A stretch of DNA of 64,000 bases from the NCBI GenBank assembly GCA_016125215.1, contig WGMF01000015.1:62001-126000 (forward strand), in the 5' to 3' direction. The notes below the pieces were generated by a model, which saw only the letters and a list, made by a program, of their open reading frames with translations, was not told the DNA's origin and did no database searches. Source of the DNA: Phycisphaera sp. Its GTDB lineage: Bacteria; Planctomycetota; Phycisphaerae; Phycisphaerales; Phycisphaeraceae. Below, piece after piece: positions 2,085-61,078 of this stretch. Every line of letters begins with the position of its first letter. Position 1 is the first letter of the stretch. The position numbers and the translations under genes are program-made.

Positions 2085-2392
2085 GCAGGAACCACAGAGG
2101 CACAGAGTCACGCAGCTAGGCCCAGGAAGTTATCCGCAGATGACGCAGATTTCACAGAATCAAGACAGATTCATTTAACACAGAGGACACGGAGGACACA
2201 GAGAAATCAAGCCGCACCTCGGCTTCTTTGTTTCTCTCTGTGCTCTCTGTGTCCTCTGTGTTGAAAAGTCTTAACCCGGTTTGAGCCTGCGTCATCCGCG
2301 GATCATGTGTGCGGATGAAACCTGTCGATCCGTCCGATCCTGTTATCCTGTCTTGTCCCCTCCTTGCCTCCGTGTCTTTAGTGGTGAATTGC
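2085..2392. repeat. Nested inverted array of 9-bp-period repeats
   Basis: The 324-bp gap between the STAS and PP2C genes is almost entirely repeat. From the left there is a CACAGAGGCACAGAG tract, a GCAGATGACGCAGATTTCACAG tract, then an AACACAGAGGACACGGAGGA tract at 2177-2205. The last is mirrored by its reverse complement at 2232-2262, ending CCTCTGTGTT. Reverse-oriented TGCGTCATCCGCGG and TCCTGTTATCCTGTCTTG tracts follow at about 2288-2355. The outermost right arm (CTCCTTGCCTCCGTG) reaches almost to the start codon at 2395, leaving no room for a conventional leader. Confidence 0.75.
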
Positions 2393-47532: not shown

Positions 47533-47577
47533 GGTGGGGGATTAGCCGGTGGTGATGAGAGGGCAAGAAACCGAATC

Positions 47578-47710
47578 AACCACCGAGACACCGAGGACAC
47601 CGAGAAGAAATTGATATAGATGGATTCTCTCGGTGATCTCGGTGTCTCGGTGGTTCATCTCTTTGATCAGTTATTGGGTCGAATCTGCGTCATCTGCGTA
47701 ATCTGCGGTT
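47578..47710. repeat. Inverted array of CACCGAGGA-type 9-bp repeats between accB and accC
   Basis: Left arm 47578-47605 (AACCACCGAGACACCGAGGA...) and right arm 47626-47655 are nearly perfect reverse complements around a 20-bp spacer. A reverse-oriented TCTGCGTCATCTGCGTAATC tract follows at about 47685-47710. The element splits the accB-accC pair. Confidence 0.8.
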
Positions 47711-49383: not shown

Positions 49384-49410
49384 GGCGAAAGTATATCGGG
49401 GGAGATGGGT

Positions 49411-49580
49411 GAACCGCCAAGACGCCAAGGACGCCAAGAACAGAAGTAGACAGGATAACCGGATTGGCTGGATGAACAGGATCAGAGCCTAAACACAGAG
49501 ATATGTTTTCATCCTGTGGGTCCGGACAATCCTGTTATCCGGTCAAGCTCTGCGTCCGCCTTGGCGTCTTGGCGGTTGAT
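49411..49580. repeat. Nested inverted repeat element (GACGCCAAG and GGATAACC families)
   Basis: Order on the plus strand: CCGCCAAGACGCCAAGGACG tract (49411-49440), GGATAACCGG/GGATGAACAGG tract (about 49451-49487), centre with ACACAGAG, reverse-oriented ATCCTGTTATCCGG tract (about 49508-49545), then reverse GCCTTGGCGTCTTGGCGG tract (49551-49576). Thus the two families mirror each other. The right arm stops 2 bp before the SDR stop codon. Confidence 0.8.
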
Positions 49581-49582
49581 CC

Positions 49583-50369: not shown

Positions 50370-50846
50370 ACGCATGAATGAGTTGGACAGGATAACAGGA
50401 TGGGCGGGATTAACCCGATCTGAACCGGGGATTTTCAACACAGAGGACACAGAGGGCACAGAGATGGATACAAGATCCATCAAATATTGAACATGGGTTT
50501 GGATTGTGGGTATTGACTTGGACACCTATCAATATGACTTGAATTGAGAACGCAGGATTCACGGGGCCGGGGAAGAAACCACAGATTGCGCAGATTTCAC
50601 AGATCGATACAGATTTATGAACCAGACTATCGGCCTGGTATCTGCGTCATCTGGGTCATCTGCGGTTTCTGTCTCGAATCCCACGCATTTCTTTGCGCAA
50701 ATATTCTCTCCGGTTACGGTCTTACTGTCAGGTGTTCTGATGATTCGATTCATAAAATCCATCCATGACAATGCGCAGCGCTTGACCTCTCTGCGTTCTC
50801 TGTGACCTCTGTGTTGAATCCGATCCTGTTGATCCCCACAATCCAG
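50370..50846. repeat. Compound repeat region between SDR and hydrolase genes
   Basis: This 490-bp gap contains no gene. From the left: GGACAGGATAACAGGATGGG (about 50378), CAACACAGAGGACACAGAGG (about 50439), ACCACAGATTGCGCAGATTT (about 50578) mirrored by TCTGCGTCATCTGGGTCATC (about 50640-50669), then CTCTGCGTTCTCTGTGACCTC (about 50790) and GATCCTGTTGATCCCCACAA with CCAGTTATCCCGTC at the right end. Outer and inner families thus mirror one another. The right end overlaps the end of the hydrolase gene. Confidence 0.78.
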
Positions 50847-51743
50847 TTATCCCGTCAAAAACATCCGATCCAACTCGCCCATAAACACGGTGATGGCCCC
50901 ATCGAGCACGGGCTGGCGTCGGCGGTAGATCGTCAGGTGCGTGGCACCCGGGACGTTGACGAAGCGGATGTTTTCGCGGCGGGTCTGGGCCACGAGCTGG
51001 TGGGTGTGTTCGGTGGCAGGGAGGTGGCGATCTTTATCACCGGCGGCAATGAGCACGGGCACGTCGATGCGCCTGAACGCGTCGAGTGTGGAGGTGTCGT
51101 CGATGTCGAAGCCCTCCTGCCGGGCCGCTTCCTTGATGCCGCGCATCAGCCAGGCGTGGTCCATCCACGGGGCAAAGAGTTTGCGGAACGACCGCACCGC
51201 GCGGCGCATATCAAAAAATGGCGCCAGCGCGATCACCGCTTGAACACGCTTATCGTCCGGTGCGTGCTGGAGCACGGTCGAGGCCCCGAGCGAGTAGCCG
51301 AAGGTCACGACACGATCACCGATGAGGTTTCTTTTCTGCGCTTCGTCGATCACCGCGGCCAGGTCGTGTTTCTCCCTGTGGCCGAAGGTCACGGCACTGT
51401 GGGAAGACAGGCCGTGGTTCCGCAGGTCCATGAGCAGCACGTCGTGGCCCATGCGCAGCATCATCGCGGCGTGGCGGAGGTGGAACTCCTTGGTCTCGAA
51501 GTAGCCGTGGACGAGCACGACGGCGGGCTTGCGGGTTTGGGCGTTGTCGGTTGAGCGCTGCGCGGGGACGTGGAGGCAGCCGATGTGGGCGTTGTCGAGG
51601 GTCGGCGCGGTGAAGCTCTGTCCGCCCTGCGTCTGTGCCCACAAGCGGACCGGGCCGCGTGCGAGGTTGCCGATCGAGTAGCGCGGCCAGCGGAGCGCCG
51701 CCCTTGCGGTGGCGACGGCCAGGGGGTGGGGTTGGGGCGACAT
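50847..51743 (-). CDS. Alpha/beta hydrolase
   Basis: This 298-residue serine hydrolase has VVLVHGYFETKEFHL (oxyanion region), nucleophile elbow GYSLGAS, an acid in AAGDKDRHLP and the histidine in GATHLTIY. Substrate unknown. Its stop codon TAA (50847-50849) lies inside a GGATAAC-type repeat, and the last residues LTG are coded by the repeat. The N-terminus lacks a clear signal. Confidence 0.88.
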   Translation of the reverse strand: MSPQPHPLAVATARAALRWPRYSIGNLARGPVRLWAQTQGGQSFTAPTLDNAHIGCLHVPAQRSTDNAQTRKPAVVLVHGYFETKEFHLRHAAMMLRMGHDVLLMDLRNHGLSSHSAVTFGHREKHDLAAVIDEAQKRNLIGDRVVTFGYSLGASTVLQHAPDDKRVQAVIALAPFFDMRRAVRSFRKLFAPWMDHAWLMRGIKEAARQEGFDIDDTSTLDAFRRIDVPVLIAAGDKDRHLPATEHTHQLVAQTRRENIRFVNVPGATHLTIYRRRQPVLDGAITVFMGELDRMFLTG

Positions 51744-52947: not shown

Positions 52948-53366
52948 GTTGTCGAGAGGGGTTTCTAGCGAAGCCCGCGAAGACGCGAAGGGTTTCACGC
53001 GGGGGTCGCGGAGAGCGCGGGGCAAGGCAGGGGAGAGGAGTTTCTCGCCAAGCTCGCCAAGCTCGCCAAGGCGCAAAGATAAGACAAGAAGGGGCTAGGG
53101 TCCAGAGCCTACGGTCTATAATTTACACGTTGAATTAATGAATTTATGGTCTGAGACGACGGTATCCACGACTCTGAGATCATCAATCATCAATCATCAA
53201 TGGTTTTTACTCTGACATCATCCATCATCCATGCTTCTTGGCGTGAACCCCCGGAAGTTTCCCCTGCGTTCCCAACGGCCCCCGCGTGAACCCCCGGAAG
53301 TTCCCCCGGAAGCTCCCCAGTAGCGAACCAAACTGACCCCCGGTATCGACCGATATCTCAAGAGGC
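52948..53366. repeat. 419-bp gap with several short-period repeats and CCCCCGGAAG copies
   Basis: No gene is seen. Contents in order: a CGCGAAGAC-type 9-bp tract (about 52970-53015), three CTCGCCAAG units (about 53044-53075), three ATCATCA heptamers (53179-53199), TCATCCA heptamers (about 53217-53231), then three exact CCCCCGGAAG copies at 53248, 53291 and 53303. The two GTGAACCCCCGGAAGTT copies near 53243 and 53286 form a direct repeat. Confidence 0.75.
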
Positions 53367-57460: not shown

Positions 57461-58349
57461 CGAGTTTGCGTAGTGCGTGGAGCAGTCGGGAGAGGTGGAC
57501 GATGGCGATGATGCACAAGACCGCCAGCGCGAGGTAGCCGATGCCGATGACCCAGAGGCAGCCCATGGCGATCATCTCGCTAAACCGCTGGTCGAGCGAG
57601 CCCATGATCCACGCGGTGATGTACGCGCTGACCATGCCGACGATGACCGATGCGATGGCGTAACCGGTGCGTCGGATGTGCCGCATGAGGTCCGGCCGAC
57701 CGATGTCGCAGCACAGGGTCGAGAGCCAGCGCTGCATGAAGAAAACCGCGGGGCAGCGTGTGGCAAAGACCAGGCCTGTGAAGACGAAGATGCCCACGAC
57801 CATGTAGTCGCTTTCGCGCAGGATCACGGTCACGGTAACCATCATGAGAAAGACCCCCATGCACAGGAAGTTGAGGCCCGTGGCAACGAGCAGGGGCGGG
57901 GACCTGAGTTTGGCGTAGCGGCCGTGTTCGGCCAGGCGTGCGAGGAAGACCGCGCCGAGAAGCCAGAGCACGTGTTCAGTCCCGACCCAGAGGACAAAGA
58001 GCACCAGCGCCAGTTCCTCGATGGCCGCACCCGCAAAGAGTGTGAGCACCGAGGTCAGCGTCAGGCTGACACTAATCAATAGAAAGAGCGTCGCCCACCA
58101 CGCGATATTTTTAGACCTCTGCCCGCCGAGCATCACGCGACCGGGGAAGAAGGCGCTCCGCACCATCTCACCACATTCCGAGCAGTTCCCGTCCCGGTGC
58201 TGCCCGCGCAGGTTGTACCCGCACCCCATGCAGTAAAGGTCGCGGTCGAGGGTTTCGGATGGGTTCAGTGTTTCGATCATCTCTTCGTCACGCAAGCTGT
58301 CGGGGTCGAACCATTGTACCCGTGCCCCCCAGTTTCCATCTGCGTTCAT
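57393..58349 (-). CDS. Membrane protein with N-terminal zinc ribbon
   Basis: This 318-residue protein has a zinc ribbon CMGCGYNLRG...CSECG (residues about 40-60) followed by five or six transmembrane helices. The wording CxxCGYNLRG is common in many Phycisphaerae membrane proteins of unknown function. The start at 58349 overlaps the tmk stop by 4 bp (ATGA), so coupled translation is likely. The first residues MNADG are coded by a GATGAACG-type repeat; M24 (58280) is an alternative start. The 3' end lies inside the mutS coding end. Confidence 0.75.
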   Translation of the reverse strand: MNADGNWGARVQWFDPDSLRDEEMIETLNPSETLDRDLYCMGCGYNLRGQHRDGNCSECGEMVRSAFFPGRVMLGGQRSKNIAWWATLFLLISVSLTLTSVLTLFAGAAIEELALVLFVLWVGTEHVLWLLGAVFLARLAEHGRYAKLRSPPLLVATGLNFLCMGVFLMMVTVTVILRESDYMVVGIFVFTGLVFATRCPAVFFMQRWLSTLCCDIGRPDLMRHIRRTGYAIASVIVGMVSAYITAWIMGSLDQRFSEMIAMGCLWVIGIGYLALAVLCIIAIVHLSRLLHALRKLVISPVARVTAAAIQTPASAIPS

Positions 58350-59020
58350 CGGCGTACATCGGCGGCTAGTCGGCTCTTCGCCAGCCCGTCGAGCAGCCTT
58401 ACATACACCGTGTCCGCGTCGGCGGTGGCGTCGATCACGAGGTAACGCGCCGGGTCGCTCGCGGCCTGATCGAGGTAGCCTTGGCGCACCATTTTGTGGT
58501 AATCGTTACCGCGCTGTTCGATGCGGTCGAGCAGGGGGTTGAGGCGTTTGGCCGCCGTCTCGCCATCGACATCGAACACGACCACGAGGTCGGGCCAGGT
58601 CTGTTGCAACGCGACCTGCCCGACGCGCAAGATATCGGCGATCGGCAGCCCGCCGGCGGCGCCTTGATAGGCCAGGGTCGAACTGATGAAACGGTCAGCC
58701 AGGACGAGTTGGCCCTTTTGCAGCGCGGGGTTGATGCGCTGGGCGATGAGTTGTGCCCGGCTGGCCATGTAGAGCAGCATCTCGCAGCGCATGTCCATGT
58801 CGTCGTTGGCCGGGTCGAGCAGGACCTGTCGGATGTGCTCGCCGATGGACGTGCCGCCGGGCTCGCGGACCTCGCAGACCTCGACGCCGTGCTCTTGCAT
58901 GAACTTCATGAAGCGTCGGAACTGCGTGGACTTGCCCGAGCCATCGGGGCCATCGAAGACGATGAATCGCCCCCGGAAGAGTTGGGGCCAACGTGGTTGA
59001 GAATCGCGGACGGCGGTCAT
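58346..59020 (-). CDS. tmk: Thymidylate kinase
   Basis: This 224-residue enzyme phosphorylates dTMP to dTDP. It has the P-loop GPDGSGKST (residues 24-32), REPGGTSIGEHIR, DRFISSTLAYQGAAGG (DRY/H-like motif) and a LID segment. The motif DRF with F instead of DR[YH] is acceptable in the family. The stop codon lies in the GCCGATGTACGCCGATGAAC repeat, which also provides the start of the next gene. It is divergent to the methyltransferase gene. Confidence 0.93.
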   Translation of the reverse strand: MTAVRDSQPRWPQLFRGRFIVFDGPDGSGKSTQFRRFMKFMQEHGVEVCEVREPGGTSIGEHIRQVLLDPANDDMDMRCEMLLYMASRAQLIAQRINPALQKGQLVLADRFISSTLAYQGAAGGLPIADILRVGQVALQQTWPDLVVVFDVDGETAAKRLNPLLDRIEQRGNDYHKMVRQGYLDQAASDPARYLVIDATADADTVYVRLLDGLAKSRLAADVRR

Positions 59021-59084
59021 GCGGCAGAGGATATCGCGGCGGCGTAAAATGAGCCATCACGCCCGAGTTCCCGGTCGGCACGCC

Positions 59085-59717
59085 ATGACACAACACCCGA
59101 TCCACGACAACCCGCTCGATCCCTACCGCGCCGCGGTGGAAAAGCACGGTCCGTCGTTCGATGTCACGCTCTGGGCCAGCCGAAAGAGCCAGCGGCTGCG
59201 TTTCAAGGTCATCGCGCAGAGCGTGTATCTGTCGGGCAAGCGCATCCTCGACGCCGGCTGCTCGCGAGGGGATTTGGCGGCCTTTCTCATCAAGCACCGG
59301 GTCGCGTTTGAAAAATACATCGGGGTCGATGGCTTGCCGGGCGTGATCGACTTTGCACGGGGGCGCGGGCTGGAGCGTTGCGCGTTCCACACCGGCGATT
59401 TACTTGAAGACGCTGCGCTATGGAAGATCGGCGACCCGCAGGTCGTCGTGATCTCCGGCACGCTCAACACGATGAACGACGGACAGGTCGAGCGCGTGCT
59501 CAACCATGCGTGGGAGGCGGCAAGCCAGACGCTGGTGTTCAATTTTCTCTCCGACCGCCACGGCCCCAAGGCCCCCGAACAGCACTGGCCCGCACGCAGG
59601 CTCTCGACCATGAAACTCGTCGACTGGGCGCTGTCGAAGACCTACGACGTGACCTTGAAACAGGACTACTTCCGCCAGGGCCACGACGCGACGATCGTGA
59701 TGAAGAAGGCGGAGTAA
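59085..59717 (+). CDS. Class I SAM-dependent methyltransferase
   Basis: This 210-residue methyltransferase has motif I ILDAGCSRGDLAAFL, motif II region KYIGVDGLPGVID and the later VVVISGTLNTM. The substrate is unknown. ATG 59085 gives a start just ahead of the conserved part; ATG 59049 is possible and would add 12 residues. It ends with TAA 59715-59717, which is also the first part of the repeat unit TAACCGCCAAGACGCC that opens the next element. Confidence 0.8.
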   Translation: MTQHPIHDNPLDPYRAAVEKHGPSFDVTLWASRKSQRLRFKVIAQSVYLSGKRILDAGCSRGDLAAFLIKHRVAFEKYIGVDGLPGVIDFARGRGLERCAFHTGDLLEDAALWKIGDPQVVVISGTLNTMNDGQVERVLNHAWEAASQTLVFNFLSDRHGPKAPEQHWPARRLSTMKLVDWALSKTYDVTLKQDYFRQGHDATIVMKKAE

Positions 59718-60108
59718 CCGCCAAGACGCCGGGGACGCCAGGAGCAAAGGCATCAGACGGGATCACAGGATGTTGAGGATGGACAGGATCAGGAATTCAC
59801 CACAGAGGCACAGAGAGAAGCCCAGACGAGTTTAAGGACGTCGAACCTTAGAGCTTTACCGCAGAGAACGCAGAGGCCGCTGAGAAGATATTTCAGATAA
59901 CTTCAGCACGTATTCACAGCTTCTTCTCAGCGGCCTCTGCGTTCTCTGCGGCAAATTGTGAGATGATTATCCCCGGCACGCTCATCACACTGTTTTTCTC
60001 CGTGTTGTCTGCGATGAATTCCTGATCCTGTCCATCCTCAACATCCTGTTATCCTGTGTACTCCGGTCTTGGCGAACTTGGCGTCTTGGCGGTTAACCGG
60101 ATCGAACC
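59718..60108. repeat. Large nested inverted-repeat element with perfect arms
   Basis: The gap has no gene. Left half: CCGCCAAGACGCC tract (59718-59752), GGATG/GGATC tract, CACAGAGG tract, then CCGCAGAGAACGCAGAGG tract. The right half holds the same families in reverse order and orientation. Two pairs are perfect: 59766-59798 with 60016-60048 (33 bp) and 59859-59887 with 59923-59951 (29 bp), the latter around a 35-bp centre. The right end GGCGTCTTGGCGGTTAACC abuts the hydrolase gene, 16 bp before its ATG. Confidence 0.9.
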
Positions 60109-60963
60109 ATGTGGCGGAAGATACAAAGGATGCTGGCGGTCGTGGCGGTGACGGCGGGGGTGGGGTATTCGCTGTTTGCGATGGCGGGGTGCGTGTTGCA
60201 GGACGCGGTGCTGTTCCCGCGCAACATGGTCGGCCCTGTGTTGGGTGTCCCGAAGCTGCAGCCCGGGGTTGAGGTCTGGCACCGCGAGCTTGGCGGCGGC
60301 AAGGGTGAGGTGGAGGCGTGGTTTGCCCCGTGCAGCGCGGCGCTGCAGAGCAAACGACCGATGGTGGTTTTCGCCCACGGCAATGCGGAGTTGATCGACC
60401 ACCAGCAAGACCTCATCGAGCGCTACCACGCGCTGGGTGTGAGTGTGCTGCTCGTCGAGTTCCGCGGTTACGGGCGCAGCGGGGGGACGCCGTCGGAGAA
60501 GAATATCGTCGATGACTTTGTTTATTTCTATGACAAGGCTGTAACGCTCCCGGGGGTGGACGCGGACCACGTGGTGATCCACGGACGGTCGCTGGGCGGG
60601 GGCGTGGCGGCGCAGCTTGCGGCGCGTCGGCCGTGCTGTGCGTTGATCCTGCAGTCGACATTCCGCTCGGTGCCGTCGATGGGGGCGCGGATGTTCATGC
60701 CGTGGTTTATCTTCAGGCACACGTTCTATACCAACAAAGTGTTACCCAGCCTGAAGGTGCCCGTGTTGCTTGTGCACGGGCGGAGCGACGAGGTGATCCC
60801 CGTGGCGGAGTCCCGGTACTTGCACGCGCTATCGCCTACGTCGGAGCTTGTGGAGTTCGATTGTGGCCACAACGATTTCCCCGGCGGGCAGGGGGCGATG
60901 TTTTGGGAAGCGCTCGAGCGGACACTGGCCAAGGCGGGGGTCGAGGCCGAGGCAGGGGAATAG
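60109..60963 (+). CDS. Membrane-anchored alpha/beta hydrolase (BEM46/ABHD13-like)
   Basis: This 284-residue hydrolase has an N-terminal membrane segment (VVAVTAGVGYSLFAMAGCVL, possibly a lipobox AMAGC). The catalytic features are VFAHGNAELIDH, the elbow HGRSLGGGVA, the acid in HGRSDEVIPV and the final CGHNDFPGG histidine. The family hydrolyses esters or peptides at membranes; substrate unknown. The start codon follows directly on the right arm of the repeat element. A TAG stop is followed at once by another repeat. Confidence 0.87.
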   Translation: MWRKIQRMLAVVAVTAGVGYSLFAMAGCVLQDAVLFPRNMVGPVLGVPKLQPGVEVWHRELGGGKGEVEAWFAPCSAALQSKRPMVVFAHGNAELIDHQQDLIERYHALGVSVLLVEFRGYGRSGGTPSEKNIVDDFVYFYDKAVTLPGVDADHVVIHGRSLGGGVAAQLAARRPCCALILQSTFRSVPSMGARMFMPWFIFRHTFYTNKVLPSLKVPVLLVHGRSDEVIPVAESRYLHALSPTSELVEFDCGHNDFPGGQGAMFWEALERTLAKAGVEAEAGE

Positions 60964-61078
60964 CCGCCGATGAACGCCGATGAACGCAGATGGGGAAACT
61001 GAGGGGGACCCACCCGTCACCAGTCACCCGTCACCTGTCATCAGTTACCAGTCACCAATCACCAGTCACCAGTCACTA
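60964..61078. repeat. GATGAACGCC decamer tract and CCAGTCA heptamer array
   Basis: First part (60964-60993): GCCGATGAACGCCGATGAAC with 10-bp period, the inverse of the tract at 58342-58372. Second part (about 61013-61075): nine to ten successive 7-bp units close to CCAGTCA, such as CCCGTCA, CCAGTCA, CCTGTCA and CCAATCA. The heptamer array overlaps the 3' end of the ketosynthase gene. Confidence 0.88.

Follow-up and report, generated by a model that had tools for sequence, protein, structure and literature searches.

A nested palindrome in a planctomycete genome is one of many short hairpins of a family associated with GxxExxY genes

Two described systems come closest to the locus presented here. 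REPIN/RAYT (TnpA-REP) elements are non-autonomous inverted hairpins in intergenic space, with many copies per genome and a dedicated nuclease gene that is flanked by the same repeats (PMC3116915). Intervening sequences in the rRNA of Coxiella and others form stem-loops that carry the ORF of the intervening-sequence protein IVP (S23p) in their loop, and the mechanism of their mobility is unexplained (PMC4990558). Hairpin mobile elements and loop-encoded ORFs are each already known.

The locus lies in a stretch of 64,000 nucleotides from Phycisphaera sp., in the following called the window. Between a methyltransferase-like and a hydrolase ORF, several families of short repeats are nested as A[B[C[D D']C']B']A' (Table 1), the order A-B-C-D / D'-C'-B'-A' having been read correctly in the original prediction. 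The span of the element had been given as 59718-60108; its true extent is 59715-60095, and 60096-60108 is a mere gap ahead of the hydrolase start, outside the element. Checked letter for letter, both arm pairs claimed to be perfect are exact: 59766-59798 is the reverse complement of 60016-60048 (33 bp), and 59859-59887 that of 59923-59951 (29 bp). Extended pairs match at 92% over 50 bp (59757-59806 / 60008-60057) and at 97% over 34 bp (59855-59888 / 59922-59955), the outer pair at 83% over 29 bp (59715-59743 / 60067-60095). The likeness of the arms also held beyond chance on re-alignment, as blastn of the element against itself recovered the whole of 59715-60095 as a single palindrome (E = 4e-44). 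The degenerate 9-bp period ascribed to the tracts applies to B and D, but not to A (spacing 8+9) and C (8+8). As anticipated, a very long hairpin would form upon transcription, the single-strand fold reaching -238.6 kcal/mol compared to -122 +/- 5.8 kcal/mol in 100 dinucleotide shuffles (z = -20). An ORF was sought in the loop of this copy and none was present, i.e. the copy is coding-free, and a search of it against Rfam gave only sub-threshold, miRNA-like hairpin matches. The name of the upstream ORF was taken over from the original prediction; the ORF had no NCBIfam match. In the surroundings, inverted arms with an F-type unit (CCGATGAACGCCGATGAACGCAGATG) were observed at 58322-58371 and 60958-61009, 2.6 kb apart, which enclose a thymidylate kinase gene, the methyltransferase-like ORF, the palindrome and the hydrolase gene.

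Table 1. Features of the palindrome, its neighbours and further elements in the window.
Feature	Position	Strand	Remarks
Upstream methyltransferase-like ORF	59019..59717	+	stop inside A arm
A left arm	59715..59743	+	TAACCGCCAAGACGCC..., outer end; TAA, its first three bases, is the stop of the methyltransferase-like ORF
B left arm	59756..59798	+	unit CRGGATNNA; perfect across 59766-59798
C left arm	59799..59819	+	ACCACAGAGGCACAGAGAGAA
D left arm	59855..59888	+	CCGCAGAGAACGCAGAGGCCGCTGAGAAG
D right arm	59922..59955	-	33-nt loop 59889-59921, no ORF
C right arm	59993..60014	-	degenerate, TTTTTCTCCGTGTTGTCTGCGA
B right arm	60016..60057	-	perfect across 60016-60048
A right arm	60067..60095	-	TCTTGGCGAACTTGGCGTCTTGGCGGTTA
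C[D D']C' composite core	59799..60015	.	homologous to free-standing copies on contigs C45 and C9
Downstream alpha/beta hydrolase ORF	60109..60963	+	
Nested element, partly decayed, C/E/B arms	2088..2370	.	
84-bp palindrome	47575..47658	.	74% self-complementary, CTCGGTGGTT end; E-type arm alongside at 47692
Second family member, A[B B']A'	49407..49582	.	
Nested element B[C[E E']D'/C']B'	50378..50864	.	
Mixed tract	52965..53260	.	CGCGAAG, CGCCAAG and 7-bp ATCAATC units

The element is far from alone in its genome. Against the genome (4.04 Mb, 58 contigs), blastn gave 125 matches at about 40 loci, and in the about 40 palindromic loci that were read the copies are single, paired or nested. Hairpin doublets in inverted orientation recur throughout the intergenic space. 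A three-unit CRCNRAG pattern matched 322 times (165 forward, 157 reverse; overlapping matches within longer arrays scored separately), compared to 12 times (8 and 4) for the reversed pattern. According to this census, drawn from sequence and pattern searches, this planctomycete genome contains hundreds of short mobile hairpins, among them the palindrome of the window. The arms fall into a handful of families with the following units: ACCGCCAAG-A-CGCCAAG-NN-CGCCAAG in A, CRGGATNNA in B, CACAGAG in C, CGCAGAG in D, CGCAGAT in E and F, CGCGAAG in H, and ATCAATC with a 7-bp period in G. In the following, a GxxExxY-linked palindromic element is a class defined in this analysis by its arms, namely at least two inverted CRCNRAK units per arm with an 8-10-bp period, converging on a loop. 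Both D arms and the left C arm of the window element have this build. The original prediction had pointed to similar tracts in other genomes, and searches of further genomes confirmed that they are widespread.

The original prediction had proposed that the arms are copied from each other or have spread as a unit. Spread as a unit is borne out. Free of A and B, the C[D D']C' core recurs at C45:105608-105819 (L063) and C9:45260-45461 (L036), with homology extending to the inter-arm stretches, most clearly in the case of C45. In the window, this core sits in the middle of the B palindrome, the centre of which would read GGATCAGGAATTCCTGATCC without it. The free-standing copies and the position inside B thus indicate that the composite has spread and lies within another element; on the simplest reading, the core would have been inserted after the B palindrome had formed. 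Copying of one arm from the other, in contrast, was rejected as a general rule, since likeness within a copy is no higher than between copies for A (22 elements, left-right likeness 0.854 within compared to 0.862 between copies, permutation P 0.86) and B (0.747 and 0.743), D and E showing a small excess. Identical arms were found in the window copy alone among 20 D-type elements, which suggests recent homogenisation or recent origin of this copy.

The sequence of the arms gives more insight on how copies may change. A set of 51 A arms was retrieved via the first two units, so that the third unit played no part in retrieval. This third unit was 96-98% conserved, and the 2-nt spacer preceding it was near random (64% and 39%). 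The overall profile of the A arm was T84 T60 A82 A100 C100 C98 G100 C100 C100. The loops of different copies are usually unrelated. Conserved cores, near-random spacers, independent arms and unrelated loops would not result from the decay of whole copies, and a simple model of copying and decay leaves the pattern in A and B unexplained. This leaves strong constraint on the cores of each copy, or else rebuilding or exchange of arms one unit at a time; the combination of conserved cores, near-random spacers and mutually independent arms could point to the latter rather than to copying of whole arms.

The key to the identity of the window element, missed in the original prediction, is the association of such arms with GxxExxY and IVP genes. 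Between the arms of one A element there is an ORF, and the product is a GxxExxY protein (TIGR04256 / PF13366, PD-(D/E)XK). All five PF13366 genes of the Phycisphaera genome sit between inverted arms that are only a few dozen bases away, the arm family differing from gene to gene and the left arm mostly ending at the start codon. GxxExxY loci were sampled more widely, 80 of them across at least 16 phyla and 34 in the same genome and its relatives, with inverted arms called at a score of at least 28. Such arms were present at 78 of the 110 testable loci, compared to 13 of 1503 in a shifted null and 0 of 29 PIN control loci. Separated by set, these are 48 of 78 in the sample across phyla (null 9/1231) and 30 of 32 in the own genome and relatives (null 4/272). 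Converging CRCNRAK units on both sides were found at 81/108 GxxExxY, 1/61 IVP and 0/29 PIN loci (pooled null 22/2250), and the best period of the GxxExxY arms was 8-10 in 68 of 78 cases. The type of arm unit tracks the protein tree, requiring 47 changes as opposed to a mean of 63 after shuffling (none of 300 shuffles as low). Across 61 genomes the number of arrays followed the PF13366 copy number (Spearman 0.74, P 8e-12, kinship between genomes ignored), at least five arrays being present in 32 of the 37 genomes with a PF13366 gene and in 8 of the 24 without.

The placement of these elements is equally regular. In 61 of 76 GxxExxY elements the left arm begins at the stop codon of an ORF on the same strand, compared to 54 of 540 (10%) in the null. 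Around A elements, 16 of 18 3' ends of adjacent genes are no more than 16 bp away from the arm, seven of them abutting it or sharing a base with it, in a table that rests on simple ORF calling and in which some 5'-end entries are unreliable. Recognisable GxxExxY genes were found in only 6 of 72,556 plasmid records; one relative was found among viral contigs, which indicates that carriage by phages is rare. Altogether, the GxxExxY-armed hairpins are one family across many phyla, usually located just behind the stop codons of other genes. Individual loci add some detail. The GxxExxY gene at L068:1501-1851 contains an in-frame TAG and is still surrounded by matching CGCGAAG arms. In Tangfeifania (G066, L262-L276) there are 17 GxxExxY-family matches, several with whole hairpins on both flanks. 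Arm family B has no GxxExxY partner in the Phycisphaera genome; a protein subgroup of Tangfeifania with B-like arms (GTCTGAAC..GGATT) is a possible partner for this orphan family.

Regarding the protein itself, GxxExxY sequences are 120-150 aa long. Among 34 of them D68, E78-x-K80 and Q92 are invariant, and Q92-x-x-x-Y96 is nearly so; together, these residues correspond to the motif set of RecB/Cas4 nucleases. A search of PDB sequences found no solved relative. The AlphaFold2 model (pLDDT 96.4) has as its closest solved fold the Cas4 protein SSO0001 (Z 9.6 over 100 residues, 4.3 A; Foldseek E 1e-3), followed at Z about 7 by many PD-(D/E)XK enzymes including Holliday-junction resolvases. A D...ExK active site is placed on an alpha/beta nuclease core in the model. 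Thus, GxxExxY is a predicted PD-(D/E)XK nuclease of the RecB/Cas4 type, and catalytic activity is predicted from motif and fold. In the open-access literature the family is named and mentioned in passing, and no described role was found.

A second protein shows the same arrangement with another period. In the Phycisphaera genome one of three 23S-rRNA-IVP (PF05635) genes lies between arms of 7-bp period. Related 7-bp elements, L071 among them, carry IVP in the loop. Among chromosomal loci of relatives and diverse genomes, 47 of 61 IVP genes are bracketed by inverted arms, with a best period of 7 in 38 of these 47. With a period of 8-10 and CRCNRAK units at GxxExxY genes and a period of 7 at IVP genes, period and motif go with the protein family.

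Among the genomes searched, the nearest relative of the window hydrolase is only 48% identical. Gain and loss were consequently followed in Bacteroides instead of close kin, at the GxxExxY element that lies behind radA in B. fragilis, comparing 30 species. Some species have arms and ORF at this site, others have one arm or decayed arms without the ORF (L242, L236, L240, L256), and in at least ten species the site is empty, with only 3-32 bp. Filled sites hold three protein lineages that are 54-60% identical to one another, in hosts whose neighbouring gene is 89-91% identical. Lineage 1 always has CACAGAT/CGCAGAT arms, lineages 2 and 3 have CACAGAG arms. Since arm type follows the protein lineage and not the host, arms and ORF are one mobile unit, which has arrived or been replaced at the radA site several times. 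Filled and empty sites are diverged, and the 30 species offered no near-identical pair in which a target-site duplication could be read. In L233 against L232, one arm unit has gone from GATTA to GAGGA, with hardly any change in the opposite arm or in the ORF; the difference reads as a unit-level exchange between arm types.

We consider it probable that a RecB/Cas4-like nuclease, in place of a Y1 transposase, serves these elements, which would be non-autonomous in the manner of REPINs. The unit is an inverted pair of arms made of short-period repeats with CRCNRAK cores every 8-10 bp, which would land preferentially right behind a stop codon. Coding members carry the GxxExxY protein in the loop or, in the sister class of 7-bp period, the four-helix-bundle protein 23S-rRNA-IVP. 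Most likely, GxxExxY would bind or cut its own type of arm, as hairpin or duplex, and in this way enable copying of the hairpin unit or its insertion at other sites. Coding-free copies could also be mobilised in trans, as RAYTs serve REPINs, and the window palindrome, a coding-free composite, would be a non-autonomous member of this widespread family. Newer elements inserting at the centre of older palindromes would give the nested order A[B[C[D D']C']B']A'. The strongest argument against the ORF product as mover of the arms comes from the IVP class, which shares the anatomy but has a protein not known to be a nuclease; the at least five arrays in 8 of 24 relatives without GxxExxY also speak against a nuclease-based explanation, as do the orphan state of family B in this genome and the A and B arms that differ as much within a copy as between copies, with conserved cores and near-random spacers. 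A broader and more tentative proposal, which we hold to be possible, is a new class of bacterial mobile element, i.e. hairpins with arms built as short-period arrays, the period being specific to the protein and the arms being rebuilt or constantly exchanged one unit at a time. Here a period of about 9 bp would go with a stand-alone Cas4-like nuclease, and one of 7 bp with a four-helix-bundle ring protein.

Alternatively, the palindromes could be kept by selection at the host or RNA level, as terminators or in protection of mRNA 3' ends, with GxxExxY and IVP as passengers homing into the loops. We regard this as unlikely. It would agree with the location directly behind stop codons, with an anatomy common to two unrelated proteins, and with conserved cores next to random spacers, which suggest constraint on each copy; however, each protein family has an arm motif and period of its own, at the radA site a change of protein lineage goes with a change of arm type, empty sites are common, and many copies lie between codirectional genes. 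Movement of REP/REPIN elements by a RAYT, a Y1 HUH transposase, is highly improbable despite the REPIN-like lifestyle and the seven Y1_Tnp genes of the genome. None of the five RAYT loci read, which stand apart from two further weak PF01797 matches, has CRCNRAG arrays, which led us to reject RAYT as the mover; one of them has inverted GTAGGGTGGGCC repeats of its own, and the arms studied here end in T-T-M-A-C-C, not in GTAG/CGTC. The statement in the original prediction that no known REP layout explains the palindrome therefore stands, the hairpin foot being free of a GTAG/CGTC tag. As a separate observation on L376 (G000:C51:2917-3255) and the other PF01797 loci, the inverted GTAGGGTGGGCC repeats that flank one of these genes are a classical GTAG-type REP family of their own, which was also seen near C17:11453 (L045). 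Equally remote is an origin as MITEs of conventional IS, although the elements are short, have inverted ends and many copies: among the transposase families searched no parent with the same ends was found, gene-carrying copies hold GxxExxY or IVP and not a DDE transposase of these families, loops are not conserved, and the arms are periodic arrays rather than fixed terminal repeats. Finally, assemblies can create palindromes, but with nothing specific pointing to this here, hundreds of copies with differing loops and flanks, the same anatomy in single-contig and cultured genomes including the complete Bacteroides fragilis chromosome, and a fold at z = -20, artefact or chance can be dismissed.

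The open-access literature, which excludes preprints and closed-access papers, yielded no account of palindromic elements that are linked to GxxExxY or specific in their period, nor of such elements under nuclease-linked palindromes, PDDEXK_3 or IVP-linked mobility; the family is apparently undescribed. If REPIN-like movement by a Cas4-like nuclease is true, GxxExxY, a nuclease family of many phyla without a described role, would obtain a function and a natural target. The intervening sequences of 23S rRNA, known for decades, would be joined to a general class of loop-encoded hairpin elements, and the CACAGAG/CGCCAAG-type tracts at gene borders of many planctomycete, Bacteroidota and Verrucomicrobiota genomes would be explained.

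Compared to known systems, the 23S rRNA intervening sequences share the long stem and the loop ORF, IVP genes here likewise lying between inverted arms (PMC4990558). They differ in that they reside in helices of the rRNA, from which RNase III excises them, whereas the present arms lie between protein genes, and in that the branch of the window is tied to GxxExxY and to another period. The window copy itself was rejected as such a sequence, being located between two protein ORFs with no S23p/IVP ORF in its loop. In the case of GxxExxY (TIGR04256, PF13366), the genes between the arms are members of the named family. With REPIN/RAYT the elements have in common intergenic inverted hairpins, many copies and a nuclease gene between the same repeats (PMC3116915). 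In contrast to REPIN/RAYT, the nuclease is a predicted PD-(D/E)XK (Cas4/RecB-like) and not a Y1 HUH enzyme, the arms consist of short-period arrays and lack a GTAG/CGTC foot, the gene is inside the loop, and different arm families are nested. The combination of a Cas4-like nuclease, a protein-specific period, nesting and placement at stop codons fits none of the named families tested.
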